Shown in pieces: positions 2,844 to 59,937 of a stretch of 64,000 nucleotides of DNA. The stretch covers positions 434,001-498,000 of the forward strand of contig NZ_JASVDS010000004.1 in the NCBI RefSeq assembly GCF_030285365.1, given 5' to 3'. The notes beneath the pieces were generated by a model that was not told where the DNA came from, searched no databases, and saw only the letters and a program-made list of their open reading frames with translations. Both the position numbers and the translations under genes were made by a program. The DNA comes from Roseateles subflavus. GTDB lineage: Bacteria > Pseudomonadota > Gammaproteobacteria > Burkholderiales > Burkholderiaceae_C. How positions within the stretch are numbered: the stretch's first letter is position 1; every line of letters begins with the position of its first letter.

Positions 2844-3797
2844 ATGAGCCGCCAAACCAAGATCCTCATCATCGGCGCCAATGGCCAGATCGGCACCGAG
2901 CTGGCCCAGGAGCTGGCCCTGCGCCACGGCAACGCCAACGTCATCACCAGCGACCTCGCGCCCGAGGGCCGCGTGAAGTCGCTGACGCACGAGATGCTGG
3001 ATGCGACTGACGGCGCGGCCGTCGCCGCGGCGGTCAAACGCCACGATATCACGCAGATCTACCTGCTGGCGGCGGCGCTCTCGGCCACCGGCGAGAAGCA
3101 CCCGATGTGGGCCTGGGATCTCAACATGAAGGGCCTGCTCAATGTGCTGGAGCTGGCCCGCACGCAGAAGCTCGATCGCATCTTCTGGCCGAGCTCCATC
3201 GCGGCCTTCGGCCCCAGCACGCCGGCCGTGATGACGCCGCAGAGCACGGTCATGGACCCGACCACGGTCTACGGCATCTCCAAGCAGGCCGGCGAGCGCT
3301 GGTGTGCCTGGTACCACGCCAAGCACGGCGTGGACGTGCGAAGCCTGCGCTACCCGGGCCTGATCAGCTACAAGACCCCGCCCGGCGGCGGCACCACCGA
3401 CTACGCCGTGGACATCTTCCACAGCGCGCTCAAGACCGGCACCTACAGCTGCTTCCTGGAGGAGGGTCAGGCCTTGCCCATGATGTACATGCCCGACGCC
3501 CTGCGCGCCACCATCGAGCTGATGGAGGCCCCGGCCGAGGCCATCACGGAGCGCGGTTCCTACAACCTGGCCGGCTGCAGCTTCACCCCGGCCGAGATCG
3601 CCGCGGAGATCCGCCGCCGCATTCCCGGCTTCGAGATCAGCTACGCGCCCGACTTCCGCCAGCAGATCGCCGCCAGCTGGCCGCAGTCCATCGATGACAG
3701 CGTGGCCCGCCGCGACTGGGGCTGGAAGCCGCAGTTCGACCTCTCGGCCATGGTCGATGACATGCTCGTCAACCTGAAGCCGCTGCTGCAGGCCTGA
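2844..3797 (+). CDS. tdh: L-threonine 3-dehydrogenase, short-chain (NAD-epimerase-like) type
   Basis: This 317-residue extended short-chain dehydrogenase has the NAD-binding motif GANGQIG near the N-terminus and the catalytic YGISK motif near residue 143. RYPGLISY and PGGGTTDYAVDIFH are characteristic of the threonine dehydrogenase branch of the UDP-galactose-epimerase-like family, known from Cupriavidus, Flavobacterium and animals. It would oxidise threonine to 2-amino-3-oxobutyrate with NAD+ and pass it to the upstream ligase. It is unrelated to the zinc-dependent E. coli Tdh. The substrate is inferred from subfamily motifs plus the kbl neighbour. Confidence 0.9.
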   Translation: MSRQTKILIIGANGQIGTELAQELALRHGNANVITSDLAPEGRVKSLTHEMLDATDGAAVAAAVKRHDITQIYLLAAALSATGEKHPMWAWDLNMKGLLNVLELARTQKLDRIFWPSSIAAFGPSTPAVMTPQSTVMDPTTVYGISKQAGERWCAWYHAKHGVDVRSLRYPGLISYKTPPGGGTTDYAVDIFHSALKTGTYSCFLEEGQALPMMYMPDALRATIELMEAPAEAITERGSYNLAGCSFTPAEIAAEIRRRIPGFEISYAPDFRQQIAASWPQSIDDSVARRDWGWKPQFDLSAMVDDMLVNLKPLLQA

Positions 3798-3879
3798 ACC
3801 GGTCGCCGTGGCACACGGCGATCCCGGCGGCGTGCAGGGCTGCTCGCCGCCGGGGCGGCGCTGCTGCTAAGCTGGCCCC

Positions 3880-4764
3880 ATGGGCCAACGTCTGTGGATC
3901 TGCGGTACCGACGATCGACTGCCCCGTCGCGCCTCGCGCGGCACGGTGCCGTGCCTGCTGTGGGCCGCGCTGCTGGCCCTGCCAGCGCTGGCCGAAGAGC
4001 CCGCGACGAAGCCGCCGGAGAAGCCCGAGGAACTGCGCTACCTGCTGGGCCTGCGCATCTCCAGCGGGCCGGAATATCCCGGCGCCCGCCGCCAGGCGCA
4101 AGGCCTGACCCCCTTGTGGGCCCTCTACTGGGGCCGCTGGCGCTTCACCACGGCCGGCACCGGCGCCATGATGGGCTTCGGCTCCGAAGCCGCCAGCCCC
4201 GGACCCGGCGCCTCGCGCGACTGGCTGCGCGGCGAGCACTGGAAGCTGGGGGTCGGCCTGCGCATCGACAGCGGCCGCGACAGCGACAAGTCCGAGATCA
4301 CCCAAGGCCTGCCCGATGTGCCGCGCACCCTGCGAGGACGCGTGAACCTGCAGGTCGAGCTCGACCCGAAGTGGACCCTCAGCGCGGCCTGGTCACCCGA
4401 CCTGCTGAACCGACGGGGCGGCGCCGAGCTGAGCGTGGACCTCGGGCGCAGCCTCTACCGCAGCCGCCATGCCTCGCTCACGCTGGGGCTGGGCCTCTCG
4501 GCCTCGGACCGCCGTCATCTGCAGAGCTATTTCGGCGTGCCCGAGGGCAGCGAGGCCGCGCAGCGGCTGGGCCGCTCCTACGAGCCGGGTACGGGGCTGA
4601 CCGGCGCCTCCGTCAACCTCAGCTACCTGCAGGCGCTGACCCCGCGCTGGGTGCTGGTGGCCAGCTGGACCGAAGGACGGCTGCTGGATGCGGCGGCCGC
4701 CAGTCCCATCGTGGAGACGACGCGCCAGCGCAGCGCTTCGATCGGGCTGGCCTACCGGAACTGA
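3880..4764 (+). CDS. MipA/OmpV family outer-membrane protein
   Basis: The 294-residue product has a signal peptide (hydrophobic run CLLWAALLALPALA, cleavage near residue 38). It then shows alternating amphipathic strands typical of a small beta-barrel. LGLRISSGPEYPGARRQ is the usual MipA start, and the chain ends in a strand closing with an aromatic-rich GLAYRN. MipA was described as a scaffold for murein synthesis enzymes, but most family members are uncharacterised. It stands alone between tdh and a convergent gene. Confidence 0.85.
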   Translation: MGQRLWICGTDDRLPRRASRGTVPCLLWAALLALPALAEEPATKPPEKPEELRYLLGLRISSGPEYPGARRQAQGLTPLWALYWGRWRFTTAGTGAMMGFGSEAASPGPGASRDWLRGEHWKLGVGLRIDSGRDSDKSEITQGLPDVPRTLRGRVNLQVELDPKWTLSAAWSPDLLNRRGGAELSVDLGRSLYRSRHASLTLGLGLSASDRRHLQSYFGVPEGSEAAQRLGRSYEPGTGLTGASVNLSYLQALTPRWVLVASWTEGRLLDAAAASPIVETTRQRSASIGLAYRN

Positions 4765-32524: not shown

Positions 32525-32587
32525 GGAACGGTTTCCTTCGAGGGCACTCTGAAACCCCGCCCGGGTGGTGACCCAGGACTGGGGAGC

Positions 32588-32798
32588 TGCCCTCGCTGTC
32601 CGCTTTACCTGAGAGATTGGCCACCGGCGTATCGCCCGCAGCTTGCCCCTTCGGTGGACGGGTTCAGGACCCGCCTCTCTCCAGTGAGGAACGTTCCGGT
32701 CGGAACGTTTTGTCAGTCCTTTTGCCTGAGCGTTCGAAGCGTGGGATCACCAATGCCTCTGCGCCTTCGGCGGCTCCCGCTAGAGAGCTCTCTCCTGA
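32588..32798 (-). promoter_or_regulatory. Tandem glycine riboswitch upstream of gcvT
   Basis: Read on the minus strand, aptamer 1 runs from about 32798 to 32712 (GGAGAGAGC ... GCCGAAGGCGCAGAGG ... CTCAGGCAAAAGGAC). Aptamer 2 runs from about 32684 to 32590 (GGAGAGAGG ... CACCGAAGGGGCAAGC ... CTCTCAGGTAAAGCGGAC). These are the conserved glycine-aptamer cores. At the 3' end CGAGGGCA (32595-32588) can pair with TGCCCTCG (32546-32539), next to the GAAGGA Shine-Dalgarno of gcvT. That offers a simple switch: glycine binding would hold the first strand and expose the ribosome site. Confidence 0.95.
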
Positions 32799-32840
32799 CC
32801 GGGCGCATTGTAGCCACGGAATCACCCTGGCCGGCAAGAG

Positions 32841-50404: not shown

Positions 50405-50992
50405 ATGCAGGGCATCCGCGTGCTGCTGATCGAGGACGGCGTGGCGAGCCCCCAGCTGCTGCGCGGGGAACTGCAGCAGCTGGGCTGCGAGGTGCTGGGC
50501 ACGGTGGACAACGCCGCGCTGATCCACGACTGCGTGCAGCGCCTGCAGCCGGACGTGGTGATCGTCAACGCCGAGTCGCCCACGCGGGACACGCTCGAGA
50601 ACCTCGCTGCGCTCAACGATGCACTGCCGCGCCCGGTCGTGGTCTTCGCCGAGGACCCCGCGGATGCACCGATGCGGCGGGCGCTGGCGGCGGGCGTCAG
50701 CGCCTATGTGGTCGCCGGGATGCAGCCGCATCGCCTGGCCCCGGTGCTGCAGGTCGCCATCGCCCGCTTCGAGCAAGACCTGGCCCTGCGCCAGGAACTC
50801 GACCGCGCGCAGGCCCAGCTCGCGGCGCGCAAGACCATCGAGCGGGCCAAGGGCATCCTGATGCAGGAGGCCGGGCTCGACGAGGAGGCGGCCTACCAGC
50901 GGCTGCGCCGCCTCGCGATGGACCGCAAGCTGCCCATGGCCGAAGTCGCCGCCCGGATCATCGACGCGCAATCCCTGCTGCGCCCCACATGA
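50405..50992 (+). CDS. nasT: NasT-like ANTAR-domain antitermination regulator
   Basis: The 195-residue protein has a receiver-like domain (about 3-125; RVLLIEDGVASPQLL, VIVNAESPTRDTL, SAYVVAGMQPHRLAPVLQVAIARFE) and a C-terminal ANTAR RNA-binding domain (about 135-195; KTIERAKGILMQEAGLDEEAAYQRLRRLAMDRKL). ANTAR proteins bind paired hexaloop hairpins in leader RNA and prevent termination. The usual phosphoacceptor aspartate is Asn55 here. In known systems NasT is held by the nitrate sensor NasS, which is absent from the window. The start MQGIRVLLIE was chosen by alignment to NasT; an ATG at 50360 is also possible. Confidence 0.88.
   Translation: MQGIRVLLIEDGVASPQLLRGELQQLGCEVLGTVDNAALIHDCVQRLQPDVVIVNAESPTRDTLENLAALNDALPRPVVVFAEDPADAPMRRALAAGVSAYVVAGMQPHRLAPVLQVAIARFEQDLALRQELDRAQAQLAARKTIERAKGILMQEAGLDEEAAYQRLRRLAMDRKLPMAEVAARIIDAQSLLRPT
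50773..50787 (-). repeat. 15-base word AGGGCCAGGTCTTGC inside nasT, minus strand
   Basis: Exact copy of the recurring word. In nasT it forces the codon CAA (EQDLAL), where this genome normally uses CAG. Confidence 0.6.
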
Positions 50993-51078
50993 GGCCGCGC
51001 CCGGCAGGCATGCACCAAGGCGAGGCGCCGGCGGCGTGTTGCGGTGCATCAGGAGCGCCCGCCGCGGGGGAAACCGCC

Positions 51079-51094
51079 TGGCACGCTTCCTGCT
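51079..51094 (+). promoter_or_regulatory. sigma54-type promoter for the nitrate assimilation operon
   Basis: TGGCACG, four bases, CTGCT: the -24 element is a perfect match and the GG-to-GC distance is the required 10 bp (GG 51080-51081, GC 51092-51093). The predicted start near 51104-51106 coincides with the first base of the leader hairpin. Upstream, TGCACC (51011-51016) and GGTGCA (51043-51048) are two NtrC-like half-sites, though 26 bp apart rather than the usual 5. Confidence 0.7.
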
Positions 51095-51105
51095 GAAGAG
51101 CGTTC

Positions 51106-51177
51106 GGGGGCCACAAAGGCGTGGTCCTCGACGACAGGCCGAAGGCATCGGCCCCGACATCCGGACAAAGGCGTCCG
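51106..51177 (+). promoter_or_regulatory. Two-hairpin ANTAR (NasT) target in the nrtA leader
   Basis: Hairpin 1: GGGGGCCAC pairs with GTGGTCCTC (51106-51129, with two G-U pairs) around the hexaloop AAAGGC (51115-51120). Hairpin 2: CGGAC pairs with GTCCG (51162-51177) around an identical loop AAAGGC (51167-51172). Loops of six with A at position 1 and G at position 4 define ANTAR targets. A third small hairpin GGCCGA/TCGGCC (51138-51154) lies in the linker. Confidence 0.8.
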
Positions 51178-51226
51178 ACCCCTGAGCGGTGCAAGCGCGC
51201 CGCCAGCAGGTCGTGACGCCTTTTTT
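51167..51226 (+). terminator. Leader terminator overlapping ANTAR hairpin 2
   Basis: AAAGGCGTC then CGACC (51167-51180) pair with GGTCG, one bulged T, then GACGCCTTT (51209-51223), followed by the rest of a six-T run (51221-51226). Its left arm includes the loop and right arm of ANTAR hairpin 2, so the two structures exclude each other. It ends 27 bp before nrtA. Confidence 0.8.
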
Positions 51227-51252
51227 GCTTTGCAGTCATCAGGAGAACACGC

Positions 51253-52497
51253 ATGTCCAGCAGCCACCAGGAGGGCTTGATGAGCCAGGAGAGACGACAG
51301 ATGCTCGGCGCCGCCGTCGGGACCGCCGCGAGCCTCACGATGCCGCAGGCCTGGGCCGCGGGCTCGGACAAGCCGGAGAAGGAGGAGGTCCGTATCGGCT
51401 TCATCCCGCTCACCGACTGCGCCTCGGTCGTGATGGCCTCGGTCCTGGGATTCGACCGCAAGTACGGCATCCGCATCATCCCGAGCAAGGAGGCCTCCTG
51501 GGCCGGCGTGCGGGACAAGCTCGTCAACGGCGACCTCGACATGGCCCATGTGCTCTATGGTCTCGTCTACGGCCTGCACCTCGGCGTCTCCGGCCCCAAG
51601 AAGGACATGGCCGTGCTGATGACCCTCAACCGCAACGGCCAGGCCATCACGCTGTCCAAGAAGCTGGCCGACAAGGGCGCGGTGGACGGCGCCTCGCTGG
51701 CCAGGCTGATGACCACGGAGAAGCGCGAGTACAGCTTCGCCCACACCTTCCCCACCGGCACGCATGCCATGTGGCTCTACTACTGGCTCGCTGCGCACGG
51801 CGTGCACCCCTGGGGCGGGGCCAAGGTCATCACCGTGCCGCCGCCGCAGATGGTGGCCAATATGCGCGTCGGCAACATGGACGGCTACTGCGTCGGCGAG
51901 CCCTGGAACCACCGCGCCATCATGGACGGCATCGGCATCACGGCGGCCACGAGCCAGGAGATCTGGCCGGACCATCCCGAGAAGGTGCTCGGCGCCACGG
52001 GCGACTTCGTGAAGAAGTATCCCAACACCGCACGCGCCGTCATCATGGCCGTGCTGGAGGCCAGCCGCTGGATCGACGCCGGTCTGCAGAACAAGCTGAA
52101 GATGGCCGACACCATCGCCGACAAGAGCTACGTCAACACCAGCGTGGACGCCATCAACCAGCGCATCCTGGGCCGCTACCAGAACGGCCTGGGCAAGACC
52201 TGGGACGACCCGAAGCACATGAAGTTCTTCGACGACGGCGCCGTGAACTTCCCCTATCTCTCCGACGGCATGTGGTTCCTCACCCAGCACAAGCGCTGGG
52301 GGCTCATCAAGGACCACCCGGACTACCTGGCCGTGGCGAAGCAGATCAACCAGGTCGAGCTCTACCGCGAGGCTGCCTCGCAGTTGAAGGTGAGCGTGCC
52401 CAAGGACCCGATGCGCAGCAGCAAGCTGATCGACGGCACCGTGTGGGAGGGCAAGGACCCCGCCCGCTATGCCGACGGCTTCAAGCTCAAGGCCTGA
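51253..52497 (+). CDS. nrtA: Nitrate ABC transporter periplasmic binding protein
   Basis: The 414-residue protein belongs to the NrtA/CmpA binding-protein family: VRIGFIPLTDCASVVMASVLGFDRKYGIRI, FAHTFPTGTHAMWLYYWLAAHGVHPWGG and VGEPWNHRAIMDGIG. The N-terminus has a twin-arginine-like signal (SQERRQMLGAAVGTAASL), so it should be exported folded. It catches nitrate or nitrite for the permease. NasS is a cytoplasmic homolog; the signal sequence argues against NasS here. First gene after the regulatory leader. Confidence 0.93.
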   Translation: MSSSHQEGLMSQERRQMLGAAVGTAASLTMPQAWAAGSDKPEKEEVRIGFIPLTDCASVVMASVLGFDRKYGIRIIPSKEASWAGVRDKLVNGDLDMAHVLYGLVYGLHLGVSGPKKDMAVLMTLNRNGQAITLSKKLADKGAVDGASLARLMTTEKREYSFAHTFPTGTHAMWLYYWLAAHGVHPWGGAKVITVPPPQMVANMRVGNMDGYCVGEPWNHRAIMDGIGITAATSQEIWPDHPEKVLGATGDFVKKYPNTARAVIMAVLEASRWIDAGLQNKLKMADTIADKSYVNTSVDAINQRILGRYQNGLGKTWDDPKHMKFFDDGAVNFPYLSDGMWFLTQHKRWGLIKDHPDYLAVAKQINQVELYREAASQLKVSVPKDPMRSSKLIDGTVWEGKDPARYADGFKLKA

Positions 52498-52532: not shown

Positions 52533-53414
52533 ATGGTGTCTGCCGTCTTCCATTCCCCTCGCGACACGAGCGTTGCGCCCGCGCCGCCCGTGCCCGCGAG
52601 CCCGCCACTTCCGCGGCCGCCGCGGGCGCCGCGCCAGCCCCTGGACGTGTCGGCGCTGCTCGCCCGGGCGCTGCCGCCGGTGCTGGGCCTGGCCCTGCTG
52701 ATCGGGCTGTGGGCGCTGCTGACGTTCAAGGGCGGCCCCATTCCGACGCCGGCCGCCACCTGGGACTCCGCCGTGCAGCTCTTCAGCGACCCCTTCTACC
52801 GCAAGGGACCGAACGACGTCGGCATCGGCTGGAACGTGCTGAACTCCCTGCAGCGCGTGGCCCTGGGCTTCGGCCTGGCGGCCGCGGTGGGCATCCCGCT
52901 GGGCTTCGTGATCGGGCGCTTCGAGTTCGCGAACCGCATGGTCTCGCCCCTCATCAGCCTGCTCAAGCCCGTCTCGCCGCTGGCCTGGCTGCCCATCGGT
53001 CTGCTGGTCTTCAAGAGCGCCGACCCCGCGGCGATCTGGACCATCTTCATCTGCTCGATCTGGCCCATGGTGGTCAACACGGCGGTGGGCGTGCAGCGCG
53101 TGCCGCAGGACTACCTGAACGTCGCCCGCGTGCTGAACCTCTCGGAGTGGAAGCTGCTCACGCGCATCCTCTTTCCCTCGGTGCTGCCCTACATGCTGAC
53201 CGGCGTGCGCCTGTCGGTGGGCACCGCCTGGCTGGTGATCGTGGCCGCGGAGATGCTGACCGGCGGCGTGGGCATCGGCTTCTGGGTCTGGGACGAGTGG
53301 AACAACCTGAACGTGCAGCACATCATCGTGGCGATCTTCGTGATCGGCATCGTGGGGCTGCTGCTGGAATCGGCGCTGGTCGCACTGGCGCGCCGCTTCA
53401 GCTTTGAGGAATGA
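52533..53414 (+). CDS. nrtB: Nitrate ABC transporter permease
   Basis: The 293-residue protein has a proline-rich cytoplasmic start, then six helices and the EAA loop QDYLNVARVLNLSEWKLLTRILFPSVLPYML. KPVSPLAWLPIGLLVFKSADPAAIW and VWDEWNNLNVQHII are typical of NrtB. CAAGGAG precedes the ATG. It lies 35 bp after nrtA and 10 bp before the ATPase gene. Confidence 0.94.
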   Translation: MVSAVFHSPRDTSVAPAPPVPASPPLPRPPRAPRQPLDVSALLARALPPVLGLALLIGLWALLTFKGGPIPTPAATWDSAVQLFSDPFYRKGPNDVGIGWNVLNSLQRVALGFGLAAAVGIPLGFVIGRFEFANRMVSPLISLLKPVSPLAWLPIGLLVFKSADPAAIWTIFICSIWPMVVNTAVGVQRVPQDYLNVARVLNLSEWKLLTRILFPSVLPYMLTGVRLSVGTAWLVIVAAEMLTGGVGIGFWVWDEWNNLNVQHIIVAIFVIGIVGLLLESALVALARRFSFEE

Positions 53415-53424
53415 GGAGACTGCC

Positions 53425-54258
53425 ATGCACAGCAACAACCCCTTCATCCAGATCCAGGGCGTGGACATGGTCTACAAGACCCGCCAGGGATCGTTCAAGG
53501 CCCTGGAGGGCATCGATCTGGACATCCGCCGAGGCGAGTTCATCAGCCTGATCGGCCATTCCGGCTGCGGCAAGAGCACGCTGCTGAATCTCGTGGCCGG
53601 GCTGCTCAAGCCCAGCCAGGGCGCGTTGCTGTGCGACCAGCGCGAGATCGCCGGCCCCGGGCCCGAGCGTGCGGTGGTCTTCCAGAACCACTCGCTGCTG
53701 CCCTGGCTCAGCTGCCTGGACAACGTGCTGCTCGCCGTCGAGACCGTCTTTGCCGCCAAGGAGGCCCGGCCTCGCCTGGTGGCCCGCGCGCAGGCCGCGC
53801 TGGAGCTCGTCGGCATGGCCCATGCGGCCTACAAGCGTCCGCACGAGATCTCGGGCGGCATGAAGCAGCGGGTGGGCATCGCCCGCGCCCTGGCGATGGA
53901 GCCCAAGGTGCTGCTGATGGACGAGCCCTTCGGTGCACTTGACGCACTGACCCGGGCCCATCTGCAGGACGAGCTGCTGAAGATCGTCGCGACCACGCGC
54001 AGCACGGTGCTCATGGTCACGCACGACGTGGACGAGGCCGTGCTGCTCTCGGACCGCATCGTCATGATGAGCCCGCCCACACCGGACGGTCGCGCGGCCA
54101 CGCTGGCGCAGGTCCTGCCCGTGCCGCTGCTTCGCCCGCGGCACCGCGTGCAGCTGGCCGAGGACGCGGTCTACCTGCACTGCCGCAAGGCGGTGATCGA
54201 CTTCCTGTACGCCGGACACGCCGGGCAGGACCAGGCCGAGCCCGCGCTGCAAGCCTGA
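53425..54258 (+). CDS. nrtD: Nitrate ABC transporter ATP-binding protein
   Basis: The 277-residue ATPase has GHSGCGKSTLLN, SGGMKQRVGIARAL, LLMDEPFGALD and THDVDEAVLLSD. It is the short NrtD type, without the binding-protein-like extension of NrtC. The start MHSNNPF was chosen for TGAGGAGACTGCC; an earlier ATG overlaps nrtB. Confidence 0.94.
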   Translation: MHSNNPFIQIQGVDMVYKTRQGSFKALEGIDLDIRRGEFISLIGHSGCGKSTLLNLVAGLLKPSQGALLCDQREIAGPGPERAVVFQNHSLLPWLSCLDNVLLAVETVFAAKEARPRLVARAQAALELVGMAHAAYKRPHEISGGMKQRVGIARALAMEPKVLLMDEPFGALDALTRAHLQDELLKIVATTRSTVLMVTHDVDEAVLLSDRIVMMSPPTPDGRAATLAQVLPVPLLRPRHRVQLAEDAVYLHCRKAVIDFLYAGHAGQDQAEPALQA

Positions 54259-54318: not shown

Positions 54319-54329
54319 CTGGAGCACGC

Positions 54330-56756
54330 ATGGACAAGATGAAACTGGTGATGGTGGGCAACGGCATGGCCGGCGTCCGCACCCTCGAAGAGCTGCTGAA
54401 GATCGCGCCGGACCTCTACGACATCACGGTCTTCGGCGCCGAGCCGCACCCCAACTACAACCGCATCCTGCTCTCGCCCGTCCTGGCCGGCGAGCAGACG
54501 CTGGACGAGATCGTCCTCAACCCGCTGAGCTGGTATGAGGAGCAGGGCATCACCCTGCACCTGGGCCGGACGGTCACCGAGATCGACCGCCGCCGCCGCG
54601 TGGTGCGCGCCGCCGATGGCACGGAGGCCGCCTACGACCGCCTGCTCATCGCCACCGGCTCGACCCCCTTCATCCTGCCGGTGCCCGGCAAGGACCTGGA
54701 CGGCGTCATCGCCTACCGCGACATCGCGGACACCCAGACGATGATCGACGCCGCGACGCGCTACCGCCAGGCGGTGGTCATCGGCGGCGGCCTGCTGGGC
54801 CTGGAAGCCGCCAATGGCCTGATGCTGCGCGGCATGGACGTCACCGTGGTCCACCTGGGCGACTGGCTGCTGGAGCGCCAGCTCGACGAGCAGGCCGGGA
54901 GCCTGCTGCGCGACTCCCTGATGCAGCGCGGCCTCACGTTCCGCCTGGGCACCCAGACGGAGGCCCTGATCGGCGACGAGAACGGTCGCGTCAGCCAGGT
55001 GCGTTTCAAGGACGGCACGGTGATCCCCGCCCAGCTGGTGGTGATGGCCGCGGGCATCCGCCCGAACACGGCGCTGGCCGAATCAGCCGGCCTGCTGTGC
55101 CAGCGCGGCGTGGTGGTCAGCGACACCCTGCAGACGGTCACCGACCCGCGCATCTACGCCGTGGGCGAGTGCGCGGCCCACCGCGGCATCGCCTATGGCC
55201 TTGTCGCGCCGCTGTTCGAGCAGGGCAAGGTCTGCGCCACGCACCTGGCGCAGTTCGGCATCGGCCGCTATCAGGGCAGCCAGACCAGCACCAAGCTCAA
55301 GGTGACGGGCATCGACCTCTTCTCGGCCGGCGACTTCATGGGCGGGGAGGGCAGCGAGGAGATCCTGATGAGCGACCCGCACGCCGGGGTCTACAAGAAG
55401 CTCGTGATCAAGGACGACAAGCTCGTCGGCGCCTGCCTCTATGGCGACACCGTCGATGGCAGCTGGTACTTCAAGCTGCTGCGCGAGGGCCGCAGCGTCG
55501 CGGACATCCGCGAGCGCCTGATGTTCGGCGAATCCAATATCGGCGACGTGGGCCACGAAGGCCACAGCAAGGCCGCCGCCATGGCCGACAGCGATGAAGT
55601 CTGCGGCTGCAACGGCGTCAGCAAAGGCGCGATCTGCAAGGCCATCAAGGACAAGGGCCTCTTCACGCTGGAGGAGGTGCGCAAGCACACCAAGGCCAGC
55701 GCCTCCTGCGGCTCCTGCACCGGCCTCGTGGAGCAGCTGATCATGTTCACCGCCGGCGGCGACTACTCGGCCACGCCGCGCAAGAAGGCGATGTGCGGCT
55801 GCACGGGCTTCAGCCACCAGGAGGTGCGCGAGGCCATCCGCGATCGGCATCTCACGAGCCGCGAGGCCGTGATGCAGACCCTGGAGTGGACCAGCCCCGA
55901 CGGCTGCCCCACCTGCCGCCCGGCCCTGAACTACTACCTCATCAGCACCTGGCCGCACGAGGCGGTGGACGATCCGCAGTCCCGCCTCATCAATGAGCGC
56001 AGCCACGCCAACATCCAGAAGGACGGCAGCTACAGCGTGATCCCGCGCATGTGGGGCGGCGAGACCACGGCCGCGGACCTGCGTCGCATCGCGGACGTGG
56101 TGGACAAGTACGCCATCCCCACGGTCAAGGTGACGGGCGGCCAGCGCATCGACCTGCTGGGCGTGAAGAAGCAGGACCTGCCGGCCGTCTGGCAGGACCT
56201 CGGCATGCCCTGCGGCCACGCCTATGCCAAGGCCCTGCGCACGGTGAAGACCTGCGTGGGCAGCGAGTGGTGCCGCTTCGGCACCCAGGACTCCACGCAG
56301 ATGGGCAAGGACCTGGAGCGCGCGCTGTGGCGCATGTACGCGCCGCACAAGGTCAAGATCGCCGTCAGCGGCTGCCCGCGCAACTGCGCCGAGGCCGGCA
56401 TCAAGGACGTCGGCGTGATCGGCGTGGACTCGGGCTGGGAGATCTACATCGCCGGCAACGGCGGCATCAAGACCGAGGTGGCCGAGTTCTTGTGCAAGCT
56501 GCGCACGGCAGAGGAAGTGCTGGAGTACAGCGGCGCCTTCCTGCAGCTCTACCGCCTGGAGGGCTGGTACCTGGAGCGGACGGTGCACTACGTCGCCCGC
56601 GTCGGCATGGACCACGTCCGCCGCCGCATCCTGGAGGACGGCCCCGGTCGCCAGGCGCTGTGGGCGGCGCTGCAGGCCGCGCTCGCGAACGAGCCGGACC
56701 CCTGGTTCGAGCACGACAAGGCGCGCGTGGACCTGCGCCAGTTCGAGACCCTCTGA
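54330..56756 (+). CDS. nirB: Assimilatory nitrite reductase [NAD(P)H], large subunit
   Basis: The 808-residue enzyme reduces nitrite to ammonium. An FAD/NAD module comes first (VMVGNGMAGVRTLEELL; second dinucleotide fold VVIGGGLLGLEAANGL). Two BFD-like iron-sulfur stretches follow (CGCNGVSKGAICKAI ... CGSCTGLV; CGCTGFSHQEV ... CPTCRPALNYY). The siroheme/4Fe-4S reductase domain is last (KTCVGSEWCRFGTQDS and SGCPRNCAEAGIKD). TGGAG precedes the ATG. It partners with NirD directly downstream. Confidence 0.97.
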   Translation: MDKMKLVMVGNGMAGVRTLEELLKIAPDLYDITVFGAEPHPNYNRILLSPVLAGEQTLDEIVLNPLSWYEEQGITLHLGRTVTEIDRRRRVVRAADGTEAAYDRLLIATGSTPFILPVPGKDLDGVIAYRDIADTQTMIDAATRYRQAVVIGGGLLGLEAANGLMLRGMDVTVVHLGDWLLERQLDEQAGSLLRDSLMQRGLTFRLGTQTEALIGDENGRVSQVRFKDGTVIPAQLVVMAAGIRPNTALAESAGLLCQRGVVVSDTLQTVTDPRIYAVGECAAHRGIAYGLVAPLFEQGKVCATHLAQFGIGRYQGSQTSTKLKVTGIDLFSAGDFMGGEGSEEILMSDPHAGVYKKLVIKDDKLVGACLYGDTVDGSWYFKLLREGRSVADIRERLMFGESNIGDVGHEGHSKAAAMADSDEVCGCNGVSKGAICKAIKDKGLFTLEEVRKHTKASASCGSCTGLVEQLIMFTAGGDYSATPRKKAMCGCTGFSHQEVREAIRDRHLTSREAVMQTLEWTSPDGCPTCRPALNYYLISTWPHEAVDDPQSRLINERSHANIQKDGSYSVIPRMWGGETTAADLRRIADVVDKYAIPTVKVTGGQRIDLLGVKKQDLPAVWQDLGMPCGHAYAKALRTVKTCVGSEWCRFGTQDSTQMGKDLERALWRMYAPHKVKIAVSGCPRNCAEAGIKDVGVIGVDSGWEIYIAGNGGIKTEVAEFLCKLRTAEEVLEYSGAFLQLYRLEGWYLERTVHYVARVGMDHVRRRILEDGPGRQALWAALQAALANEPDPWFEHDKARVDLRQFETL

Positions 56757-56765
56757 GGAGCCGCC

Positions 56766-57161
56766 ATGCACACGATCCCCACCGACGGCTGGATCGCCGT
56801 CTGCCGCCTCGACGACATCCCGCGCCTGGGCTCCCGCCGCATCCAGCGCCCCGCGCTGCCGGAGGCCGCGCCCGTCGCCCTGTTCCGCACCTCCGACGAC
56901 GAGGTGCATGCGCTGCTGGACCGCTGCCCGCACCAGGGCGGCCCGCTGAGCCAGGGCCTGGTCTTCGGCAAGGCCGTGGCCTGCCCCCTGCACCACTGGA
57001 CCATCGAGCTGCGCACCGGCAGCGCCCGCGAGCCCGACGAGGGCCGCACGCCGCGCTTCGAGGTGAGGCTGGTCGAGGGTCAGGTCTTGCTGCTGGCGAG
57101 CGAGCTGGACAGCCTGGGCACCGAAGCGCTGGCGCCCAGCGCCTGCGGCCGTCGCTGCTGA
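56766..57161 (+). CDS. nirD: Nitrite reductase small subunit, Rieske-type
   Basis: The 131-residue protein has a Rieske fold with the ligand pairs DRCPHQGGPLSQG and VACPLHHWTIEL. It associates with NirB. Nine bases separate it from nirB and four from nasA. Confidence 0.94.
   Translation: MHTIPTDGWIAVCRLDDIPRLGSRRIQRPALPEAAPVALFRTSDDEVHALLDRCPHQGGPLSQGLVFGKAVACPLHHWTIELRTGSAREPDEGRTPRFEVRLVEGQVLLLASELDSLGTEALAPSACGRRC
57076..57090 (+). repeat. 15-base word AGGGTCAGGTCTTGC inside nirD
   Basis: Exact copy encoding EGQVLL; 18 bases are identical with the copy in the kinase gene at 34714, including the uncommon codons GGT and TTG. Confidence 0.6.
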
Positions 57162-57165
57162 CGCC

Positions 57166-59937
57166 ATGAGGGAGACGCGGAGCACCTGTGCCTACTGCGG
57201 CGTGGGCTGCGGGGTGATCATCGAGAGCGAGGGCCCGCGCATCACCGGCGTGCGCGGCGACCCCGACCATCCGGCCAACTTCGGCCGGCTGTGCAGCAAG
57301 GGGGCCAGCCTGCACCTGACGGCGCAGCCAGAAGTGCTGGCCAGCCGCCGCCTGCTGCAGCCGCAATGGCGCGAGGACCGGGCACAAGCCTGGCAGGCGA
57401 GCGGCTGGGACGAGGTGCAGGATCGTCTCGTGGCGCGCCTGCTGGCCCTGCGCGCGGCGCACGGCCCGGAAGCGCTCGGCTTCTACGTCTCCGGCCAGCT
57501 GCTGACGGAGGACTACCACGCCTTCAACAAGCTGGCCCGTGGCCTGTGGGGCACACCGCACATCGACAGCAACTCGCGCCTGTGCATGAGCTCGGCCGTC
57601 GTGGGCTACAAGAAGGCCCTGGGCGCGGACGCGCCGCCCTGCAGCTACGAGGACGTGGAGCGGGCCGACTGCCTCTTCATTGCCGGCTCGAACACGGCCT
57701 GGGCCCACCCGGTGCTGTTCCGGCGCATCGAGGCGGCGAAGGCCGCGCGCCCCGGGTTGCGCATCATCGTCGTCGACCCGCGCCGCACCGAGACGGCGGA
57801 GTTCGCCGACCTGCACCTGGCGCTGCGCCCTGGCAGCGACGTGGCGCTGTTCCAGGGCCTGCTGCACGTGATGATCTGGCAGGGCTGGATCCGCGCGGAC
57901 TACATTGCCGCCCACACCGAGGGCTTCGAGGCCGTGCGCGAGGCCGTGCGCGCCATGACGCCGGCCCGCGCGGCGCAGCTGTGCGGCCTGCCGGAGGCTC
58001 AGATCATCGAGGCGGCGCAGCTCTTTGCGCAGAGCCCGGCCACGCTGTCCCTGTACTGCATGGGCTTGAACCAGAGCAGCGCCGGCACCGACAAGAACCA
58101 GGCGCTGATCCAGCTGCACCTGGCCACCGGCCAGATCGGGCGCCCGGGCACCGGGCCGTTCTCGCTCACCGGGCAGCCCAATGCCATGGGCGGCCGCGAG
58201 GCCGGCGGCATGGCCACGCTGCTGCCGGGACACCGGGATCCGGCCTCCGCGGTCGATCGTGCCGAGGTCGCGCGGCTGTGGGGGGTCGAGCAGATCCCGG
58301 ATCGCCCCGGCAAGACGGCCGTCGAGATGTTCGAGGCCGCCGAGGCCGGCGAGATCAAGGCGCTGTGGATCGCCTGCACGGACCCGGCGCAGTCGTTGCC
58401 GCGGCAGTCCCTCGTGCGCGCCGCATTGCAGCGCTGCGAGCTGGTCGTGCTGCAGGACGCCTTCACGGGCAGCGCCACGGCCGAGTTCGCCCACGTGCTG
58501 CTGCCCGCGGCAACCTGGGGCGAGAAGGAGGGCACCGTCACCAACAGCGAGCGGCGCATCAGCCGCGTGCGTGCCGCGGTCCCGCCCCCGGGGGACGCGC
58601 GCACGGACTGGCAGATCGTGCGAGACCTGGCGCGCCGCCTGGAGCCGGCCCTGCGCCCGGGCCAGCCTCGCCTCTTCGACTGGAACCACCCGGCCGAGGC
58701 GTGGCTGGAGCACCGGGCGGCCACACGCGGCCGGGACCTCGACATCACCGGCCTCAGCTACGCCGGGCTCGAGGTCGCGCCGCAGCAGTGGCCCTGCCCG
58801 GCAGGCGCCGCGCAGGGGCGCGCGCGGCTGTATGAGGACGGGCGCTTCGCCACGGACAGCGGCCGTGCCCGCTTCCTGCCCATCGCCTGGCGCGCGCCCG
58901 CGGAGCCGCTGACCGTCGAGCGGCCGCTGCAGCTCTCGACCGGCCGCCTGCGGGACCAGTGGCACAGCCTCAGCCGCAGCGGCACGGTGCCGGCGGCCTT
59001 CGCGAGCGCGCCCGCGCCCCGGCTGGGGCTGCATCCGGAGGAACTCGCCCGCCACGGGCTGCGGCAGGACGAGCTCGTGGCCGTGGAGAGCGCCCGCGGC
59101 ACGCTGCACGTCCGGGTGGCGGCGGACCCGCAGCTCGGCCTGCGCCAGGCCTGGCTGCCGATGCACTGGGGCAGCGAATACCTGCTCGGACGAGACGAAG
59201 AGGGCGCCGCGATGCACGGCGTGAATTCCTTGAGCCAGGATGCGCGCTGCCCGGACTCGGCCCAGCCCGAGCTCAAGTTCGCCGCCATCCGCCTGCGCCG
59301 GGTCGAGCTGCCCTGGCGGGTGATGGGGGCCGCCCATGTCGATGCTGCCCACGCCGAGCGCCTGCACCAGCAGCTGCTGGCGCTCGGTCGCGATGCCGCC
59401 TACGCCAGCTGCGTGCCCGCCGAGGGGGCCACGCCGGGCCAGGTTGGCTGGCAGCTGGAGGCCGCCTTCGCGCAGACGCCCGATCCCGCGTGGGTGACGC
59501 AGCTGCTCGCGGCGCTGGACCTGCAGCGGCCGGGCACGATGCGCTATGCCGACGGCCGCCGCGGCCACCTGCGCCTGCTGCGTCTGCAGGGCGAGGGCGG
59601 CGATGCCCGCCTGCAGGCCTGGCTGCGCGTGGCGCAGGGCGAGGACGGCGCCTGGCTCGACGCCTGGTGGCGCGAGGCCCGCCCCGTGGCGCCGCTCGGA
59701 CGTCAGCTGCTGGCCCCGCAGGCCCGGCTTGCCGAGCCGCCCGCCAGCCCGGTCGTCTGCCAGTGCCTGGGCGTGCGCGAGGCGCAGATCCAGGGCCAGC
59801 TTCAGCGCTGTCAAGACCTGGCCCCCGCCGACCGGCTGCAGGCGGTGCAGGCGGCCCTGCGCTGCGGCACCCAGTGCGGCTCCTGCCTGCCGCAGCTGCG
59901 CCGACTCAGTCAAACGACCCTGGAGACCCTCTCATGA
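57166..59937 (+). CDS. nasA: Assimilatory nitrate reductase, catalytic subunit
   Basis: The 923-residue molybdopterin enzyme begins with a 4Fe-4S cluster site (CAYCGVGCGVIIES ... LCSKG) and the molybdenum cofactor region (SNSRLCMSSAVVGYKKALGADAPP). The dinucleotide-binding domain follows (TGRLRDQWHSLSRSGTV onwards). About 65 C-terminal residues form a BFD-like 2Fe-2S domain (VCQCLGVREAQIQ ... CGTQCGSCLPQLRRL), as in Klebsiella NasA. No signal peptide is present, so it acts in the cytoplasm. It reduces nitrate to nitrite for NirBD. Confidence 0.96.
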   Translation: MRETRSTCAYCGVGCGVIIESEGPRITGVRGDPDHPANFGRLCSKGASLHLTAQPEVLASRRLLQPQWREDRAQAWQASGWDEVQDRLVARLLALRAAHGPEALGFYVSGQLLTEDYHAFNKLARGLWGTPHIDSNSRLCMSSAVVGYKKALGADAPPCSYEDVERADCLFIAGSNTAWAHPVLFRRIEAAKAARPGLRIIVVDPRRTETAEFADLHLALRPGSDVALFQGLLHVMIWQGWIRADYIAAHTEGFEAVREAVRAMTPARAAQLCGLPEAQIIEAAQLFAQSPATLSLYCMGLNQSSAGTDKNQALIQLHLATGQIGRPGTGPFSLTGQPNAMGGREAGGMATLLPGHRDPASAVDRAEVARLWGVEQIPDRPGKTAVEMFEAAEAGEIKALWIACTDPAQSLPRQSLVRAALQRCELVVLQDAFTGSATAEFAHVLLPAATWGEKEGTVTNSERRISRVRAAVPPPGDARTDWQIVRDLARRLEPALRPGQPRLFDWNHPAEAWLEHRAATRGRDLDITGLSYAGLEVAPQQWPCPAGAAQGRARLYEDGRFATDSGRARFLPIAWRAPAEPLTVERPLQLSTGRLRDQWHSLSRSGTVPAAFASAPAPRLGLHPEELARHGLRQDELVAVESARGTLHVRVAADPQLGLRQAWLPMHWGSEYLLGRDEEGAAMHGVNSLSQDARCPDSAQPELKFAAIRLRRVELPWRVMGAAHVDAAHAERLHQQLLALGRDAAYASCVPAEGATPGQVGWQLEAAFAQTPDPAWVTQLLAALDLQRPGTMRYADGRRGHLRLLRLQGEGGDARLQAWLRVAQGEDGAWLDAWWREARPVAPLGRQLLAPQARLAEPPASPVVCQCLGVREAQIQGQLQRCQDLAPADRLQAVQAALRCGTQCGSCLPQLRRLSQTTLETLS

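Follow-up and report, generated by a model that had tools for sequence, protein, structure and literature searches.

In Roseateles subflavus, a member of the Burkholderiales, the nitrate assimilation operon nrtABC-nirBD-nasA is very probably controlled by a sigma54-type promoter followed by a leader that NasT would read as an antiterminator. The operon lies in a stretch of 64,000 nucleotides (hereafter the window), taken from a genome of 5.05 Mb on 23 contigs with a completeness rating of 100%, whose closest nasT matches, at 95–96%, are Pelomonas and Mitsuaria records. This reading is based on the sequence, the predicted RNA structure, the covariation of two mutually exclusive folds, the adjacency of nasT and the finding of no NasS; the start site, the role of NtrC, the binding of NasT and the nitrate signal we infer. 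The best candidate for the nitrate sensor would be NrtA itself, the binding protein encoded by the first gene behind the leader.

Under nitrogen shortage, NtrC together with sigma54 would start transcription at about 51105. If no active NasT is present, hairpin 1 (H1) and then the terminator would fold, and RNA polymerase would stop before nrtA. Active NasT, on the other hand, would bind both AAAGGC hexaloops and hold hairpin 2 (H2), which would block the terminator, since the loop and right arm of H2 also serve as the terminator's left arm. With the terminator blocked, nrtABC-nirBD-nasA would be transcribed.

Promoter, leader and operon

The gene order is nasT, leader, nrtA, nrtB, nrtC/D, nirB, nirD and nitrate reductase (Table 1). 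For NrtA, none of the NCBIfam models searched scored above its own cut-off. The top models for the nitrate reductase frame were formate dehydrogenase alpha and NasA/NasC, all under their own cut-offs. Elsewhere in the window, a tandem glycine riboswitch occupies 32586-32807 on the minus strand, with two aptamers of 59.7 and 51.0 bits; the frame that follows it is gcvT-like by eye, and the arrangement is ordinary.

Table 1. Positions of the promoter, leader elements and genes in the window.
Feature	Position	Strand	Description
Possible NtrC site	51011..51027	+	10/14 to consensus; right half weak
nasT	50405..50992	+	degenerate receiver domain + ANTAR domain; start codon uncertain
Sigma54-type (-24/-12) promoter	51079..51094	+	TGGCACGCTTCCTGCT; GG 51080-81, GC 51092-93
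Hairpin 1 (H1)	51105..51130	+	10 bp; arms 51105-51114 / 51121-51130; hexaloop AAAGGC 51115-51120
Linker hairpin	51137..51153	+	6 bp, 5-nt loop; seen in the window's genus
Hairpin 2 (H2), putative antiterminator	51162..51177	+	5 bp; arms 51162-51166 / 51173-51177; hexaloop AAAGGC 51167-51172
Predicted intrinsic terminator	51167..51226	+	arms 51167-51180 / 51209-51223; bulge 51214; U-tract 51221-51226 (U6)
nrtA, nitrate-binding protein	51253..52497	+	Tat-type signal ERRQML (by eye); best solved relative 2g29 NrtA, E 5.6e-77
nrtB, nitrate ABC permease	52533..53414	+	TIGR01183 over cut-off
nrtC/D, ATP-binding subunit	53404..54258	+	TIGR01184 over cut-off
nirB, nitrite reductase large subunit	54327..56756	+	TIGR02374 over cut-off
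nirD	56766..57161	+	TIGR02378 over cut-off
Assimilatory nitrate reductase, nasA type	57166..59937	+	name from similarity and operon context

An earlier note on this DNA had proposed a sigma54 GG-N10-GC promoter before nrtA, and comparison with relatives bears this out: TGGCAC and the GC are invariant in all 27 aligned relatives, and the distance from the promoter's first base to loop 1 is 34–41 nt in the 25 leaders among them that were readable by the parser. The call is made on this conservation in place and not on pattern counts, since the pattern with one mismatch occurs three times in the window against 5.7 expected, which is not above chance, and the exact pattern has 19 matches in the whole genome against 12 for a reversed control. 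The promoter begins 86 nt after the end of nasT, and a scan for sigma-70 promoters returned nothing. The GC, which we take by convention to stand at -13/-12, would place +1 at 51105, the first base of H1, where the same note had predicted the start. For NtrC we scored sites against the consensus TGCACCA-N3-TGGTGCA; the best sites before 75 promoters average 10.3 of 14 positions, compared with 8.4 in letter shuffles, and the window's own is weak. In Acidovorax citrulli, an ntrC mutant is described as unable to use nitrate, and deletion of ntrC as lowering expression of a gene called nasS and raising that of nasT (PMC10052978).

Both hairpins with the identical hexaloop AAAGGC that the note had recognised are present in the sequence and in the predicted fold, and the terminator does reuse H2 bases, 51167-51180 pairing with 51209-51223; its left arm consists of loop 2, the right arm of H2 and three further nucleotides. 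In the predicted fold of the RNA from 51105 to 51182, the two hexaloop hairpins flank the linker hairpin (z -2.4; an energy this low was seen in 6 of 200 shuffles), while the longer RNA to 51230 forms H1 and the terminator (z -6.2; 0 of 200). The terminator by itself has a z of -6.8, again with none of 200 shuffles as low. The combined element, namely two A1/G4 hexaloop hairpins of which the second is shared with a terminator, occurs once in the 64 kb, with both strands scanned, and in none of 30 dinucleotide shuffles. A simple terminator scan gave no match in the leader because it accepts short loops only, and Rfam gave no family match on the leader at gathering score. The linker hairpin folds as the note claimed, one base to the left of the 51138-51154 given there, and its loop is not of the A1/G4 hexaloop type. 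The linker measures 31 nt in the window versus about 16 in several sister genera, and the linker hairpin may offset this length; for EutV, a linker lengthened by 20 nt is described as abolishing antitermination (PMC8934654).

Conservation of the leader in relatives

The family survey covered 200 genomes, 96 of them with nasT at E 1e-25 and 146 with an NrtA match at E 1e-15, and stretches adjoining nasT were taken from all 96. Twenty-seven leaders with nasT identity of at least 55%, two of them from metagenome records, were aligned from the promoter to the U-tract. A1, A2, G4 and G5 are invariant in both hexaloops of all 27. In H1 and H2 together, 92.2% of cells are paired and 10 of 15 pairs show two-sided changes (8 of 10 in H1, 2 of 5 in H2), with a covariation of 0.428, compared with 0.197 in shuffles and no more than 0.095 after sliding. 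The terminator is paired in 98.4% of cells, with two-sided changes at 6 of 14 pairs; its covariation is 0.254, as against 0.139 in shuffles and 0.072 or less after sliding. Among 500 shuffles of the terminator, 2 have at least as many two-sided pairs and 17 at least as many pair types. Sliding moves the partner by one to three columns, which destroys the signal, and the shuffle controls ignore relatedness. Compensatory stem changes among relatives, whose absence the earlier note would have held against its reading, are present in H1, H2 and the terminator alike.

In L059, at alignment columns 103/114/182, the strand shared by the two folds and both of its partners have changed; the same three-way compensation is seen at columns 101/116/179 in L061 and L062, which belong to one genus. 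L061, L062 and L010 also show covariation between the third loop position and the terminator arm. The three-way compensation and the covariation together are comparative evidence that both of two mutually exclusive RNA folds have been selected in a NasT target. The leader could instead be nothing more than a terminator, H2 being incidental and without an antiterminator role, as might be argued from the predicted stability of the terminator, which is far above that of H2, and from the small number of H2 pairs with two-sided change; but the joint changes of H2 pairs with the shared strand and its terminator partner, and the invariant A1 and G4 of both loops, make this highly improbable. By its sequence, the leader is a member of the known ANTAR dual-hexaloop antiterminators, placed behind a sigma54-type promoter.

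A covariance model built from the 27 aligned relatives, which could miss divergent leaders, found the window's leader as the sole strong match in the whole genome (E 2.9e-18; its own antisense 0.04; the next place 0.5), so that this search gave no convincing second NasT-type leader or other NasT target. The antitermination leader proposed from the sequence is thus upheld by covariation, by the adjacency of nasT and by this single strong match.

A strict parser read 75 of 97 leaders, the window's included, and left 22 unparsed. In 25 of the 75 parsed leaders, and in none of 1,500 shuffled regions, the terminator-sharing hairpin is preceded by two further hairpins with A1/G4 hexaloops; three hexaloops are therefore real in relatives, but as a family rule they were rejected, not being general and the window having two. 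The three-hexaloop group, with nasT 42–48% identical, includes L102, L111, L128, L133, L138, L151, L154, L163 and others; counted from the first base of the promoter, the loops lie at about 33, 60 and 90 nt. A looser count of 30 leaders with three loops permits G at position 1 and includes overlapping matches in L055 and L056. Some leaders have a 5' hairpin with a different loop (L065, L147, L155; by eye). In L120, L130, L134, L135, L140, L141, L142 and L150 the terminator-sharing hexaloop starts with G (GANGGC), against the A1 rule, and several such leaders have an additional middle hairpin with A1/G4.

NasT and its nitrate sensor

The ANTAR domain of the window's NasT is over the Pfam cut-off (E 2.2e-19), and its Response_reg match (E 1.2e-6) falls just below, with 29.1 bits against 30.2. 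The phospho-acceptor column of the receiver holds Asp in 98 of 111 aligned NasT rows and Asn in four, including the window's. This NasT is 34–47% identical to NasT proteins that adjoin an NrtA-like partner gene in three alphaproteobacteria, one match covering 145 residues only. The earlier note had a nitrate signal arriving via NasT, which is not supported as written: the sensor of Paracoccus is NasS, and none was found here. NasS of Paracoccus is described as sensing nitrate and holding NasT, which is itself no nitrate sensor, and as having no signal sequence; the authors also caution that nasS may be mis-annotated (PMC3795266).

Three queries were used in the search for NasS in the genome. 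NrtA found itself only, PF13379 found NrtA and one distant protein (L098, 54.7 bits), and Paracoccus NasS found NrtA only, at 31%; the sole close NasS/NrtA-family protein by these queries is the operon's own Tat-exported NrtA, and no signal-less nitrate-binding NasS was found. L098 was set aside as NasS, as it is distant and has a lipobox by eye. The best match in a genome search for a NIT-domain sensor had 16 bits, below the cut-off. Within the family, a NasS/NrtA-family match at E 1e-15 was present in 96 of 96 nasT genomes and in 50 of 104 genomes without nasT. A single such match was obtained with the NrtA query at this threshold in 65 of the 96 nasT genomes, and in 61 when matches to a Methylocella NasS query at E 1e-10 were counted by hand; in the other nasT genomes a separate NasS elsewhere is possible. 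The NasS-NasT scheme may therefore not cover much of the family. A literature search by title and abstract start, with most subscription journals outside its scope, returned no NasT without NasS and no NrtA acting as a sensor.

One explanation is that NasT is blind to nitrate, either always active or acting by its amount, so that the leader merely damps the operon and nitrogen limitation alone regulates it. The finding of neither NasS nor a NIT domain over the cut-off is in line with this, as are the loss of the phospho-acceptor and the conservation of the window's protein towards 71 farther NasT rows, which is 0.36 in the receiver and 0.52 in ANTAR. Pairwise conservation within groups, however, is at least as high in the receiver as in ANTAR (0.77 and 0.71 among 20 close rows, 0.69 and 0.65 among 40 farther rows), as expected if the receiver still meets a partner, and a family protein accompanies nasT in all 96 genomes. 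We therefore regard a nitrate-blind NasT as rather unlikely. In the four NasT rows that adjoin a signal-less partner, the values are 0.46 for the receiver and 0.56 for ANTAR.

It is somewhat unlikely, though less so, that NasT stands under an unrelated, unrecognised sensor or itself senses nitrate or nitrite. The genome does hold L098, a second ANTAR protein and other response-regulator-like matches, from which such a sensor might come, but the distance and lipobox of L098 speak against it. The receiver of the second ANTAR protein (L002) is ordinary (86 bits) and its ANTAR match is weaker; this protein was also considered as the leader's regulator and set aside because nasT adjoins the leader.

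We tentatively favour a double role for NrtA, as the binding protein for transport and as the NasS that was not found, a possibility that we put somewhat short of probable. Apo-NrtA would hold NasT, and nitrate would release it. The protein keeps all five nitrate contacts (W102, Q155, H196, G240 and K269 in 2G29 numbering). Tat exports folded proteins, so newly made NrtA could bind both nitrate and NasT while still in the cytosol, and since nrtA is itself preceded by the NasT leader the loop would limit itself. In genomes that have lost or exchanged the native permease, this protein may remain, without signal, as a dedicated NasS. The contacts of 2G29 are those listed in PMC13204499.

The relatives were examined for such cases at 106 nasT loci, a set in which one genome is counted twice and a few loci come from beyond the 96 nasT genomes. 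For the protein encoded behind the leader, the N-terminus was readable at 97 of them (92, and five more by eye), and the twin-arginine signal is absent from three (G002, G040 and G082). Downstream of these three (L195-L197) lies a foreign nrtABCD set, with a second binding protein of 33–34% identity and an NrtB of 38–40%, and the original protein, 64–73% identical to the window's NrtA, still follows the NasT leader but lacks its signal. The second binding protein carries a Tat signal in all of L195-L198; in G199 (L198) the original protein also retains its own.

For a wider comparison, 78 loci were tabulated whose binding protein is at least 45% identical to the window's NrtA or to a Caballeronia relative, a native permease being an NrtB of at least 60% within 2.5 kb. 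This sample is not random: 30 loci are the family's best NrtA matches, and 18 stretches were picked mostly for NasS-like proteins or short frames. Fifty loci have both Tat signal and native permease, 26 have neither, two have the signal without the permease (L198, L217) and none has the permease without the signal, these loci not being phylogenetically independent. nasT lies upstream at 46 of 52 Tat loci and 24 of 26 signal-less loci, and the five nitrate contacts are intact in 52 of 52 Tat proteins and 24 of 26 signal-less ones. Three genomes from a different family (L220, L221, L223) have the signal-less version between leader and nirB, which starts 78 bp downstream, with no adjacent nrtB. 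In most Caballeronia-type loci it follows nasT by 15–92 bp, and in L235, L236, L239, L240 and others of this type the model-placed leader comes after it, which is the classical NasS order; L207 and L241 likewise have the leader after the signal-less protein.

Other arrangements were also met. L217 (G350), where the leader match is weak (E 0.015), has nasT and a Tat NrtA with nitrate reductase directly behind it and no adjacent permease, and is thus an exception to the pattern of signal and permease. G309 has both forms (L230 / L231), a signal-less protein beside nasT and, elsewhere, a Tat-exported NrtA with permease; the latter locus has no nasT in the stretch read and a leader-like match upstream (E 3e-5). 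A Caballeronia plasmid (L176) has two divergent leader-like matches, 3379-3526 (-) and 3805-3928 (+), between nirB and nasT.

In a quick tree of 75 rows, the root of which is uncertain so that the direction between NasS and the exported form is not set by it, the pair G002 and G040 (support 100) and G082 fall inside the window-family clade, which is otherwise Tat. Its supported branches require at least three changes of signal label. A single clade of signal-less proteins is rejected (p-AU 0.0126), a result that is not final as long branches are present. An independent-pairs test of signal peptide against native permease had three pairs on supported branches (four in total) and gave p 0.5, too few pairs to judge.

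A transport-only protein would be expected to vanish with its transporter; several lineages keep it near nasT, which is sensor-like behaviour. The retained signal-less protein is by its sequence cytosolic, with a mostly intact pocket, and suggests that the exported NrtA of the window is already a sensor. Against this stand the export of NrtA, the divergence of the window's receiver relative to ANTAR towards the farther NasT rows, the Tat signal that L217 keeps with no permease adjacent, and those signal-less proteins that lie towards the tree's base, which may be ordinary NasS. With these weighed, our assessment of NrtA as the sensor stays cautious. If true, one gene would link nitrate uptake with nitrate sensing, a periplasm-bound transporter subunit would serve as a cytosolic sensor before its export, and nrtA and nasS annotations would have to be reconsidered.

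Comparison with known systems

The Klebsiella nasF operon has a sigma54/NtrC promoter, a likeness to the arrangement before nrtA. The nasF leader read by NasR is described as having dual A1/G4 hexaloops, the second of which overlaps the terminator (PMC3369931). NasR has its own nitrate-sensing NIT domain, unlike the NasT of the window. NasS-NasT of Paracoccus denitrificans is likewise described as having an ANTAR regulator, NasT, with a hairpin leader before the structural genes (PMC3795266, PMC5424462) and as under joint NtrBC control (PMC5424462, PMC3795266), which we propose for the window too. The order in Paracoccus denitrificans is nasT-nasS-leader-nasA, with a signal-less cytosolic NasS, whereas that of the window is nasT-leader-nrtA with no NasS gene found. 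The eut leaders of Enterococcus, read by EutV, are the best understood case of dual-hexaloop antitermination, the kind proposed for the window; the mechanism is reported as shown for EutV, and the dual motif as common to the nasF and amiE leaders (PMC3369931, PMC8934654). The receiver Asp through which a kinase activates EutV is replaced by Asn in the window's NasT.

AmiC, unlike NrtA, is not known to be an exported transporter subunit. In AmiC-AmiR a small-molecule-binding protein is described as holding an ANTAR protein (PMC3795266), the arrangement proposed here for NrtA. Joint control by NtrBC and NasT has already been described (PMC5424462), and dual control of the operon is therefore not new. 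The type of switch is known; the unusual part is a NasT for which its usual nitrate-sensing partner was not found.
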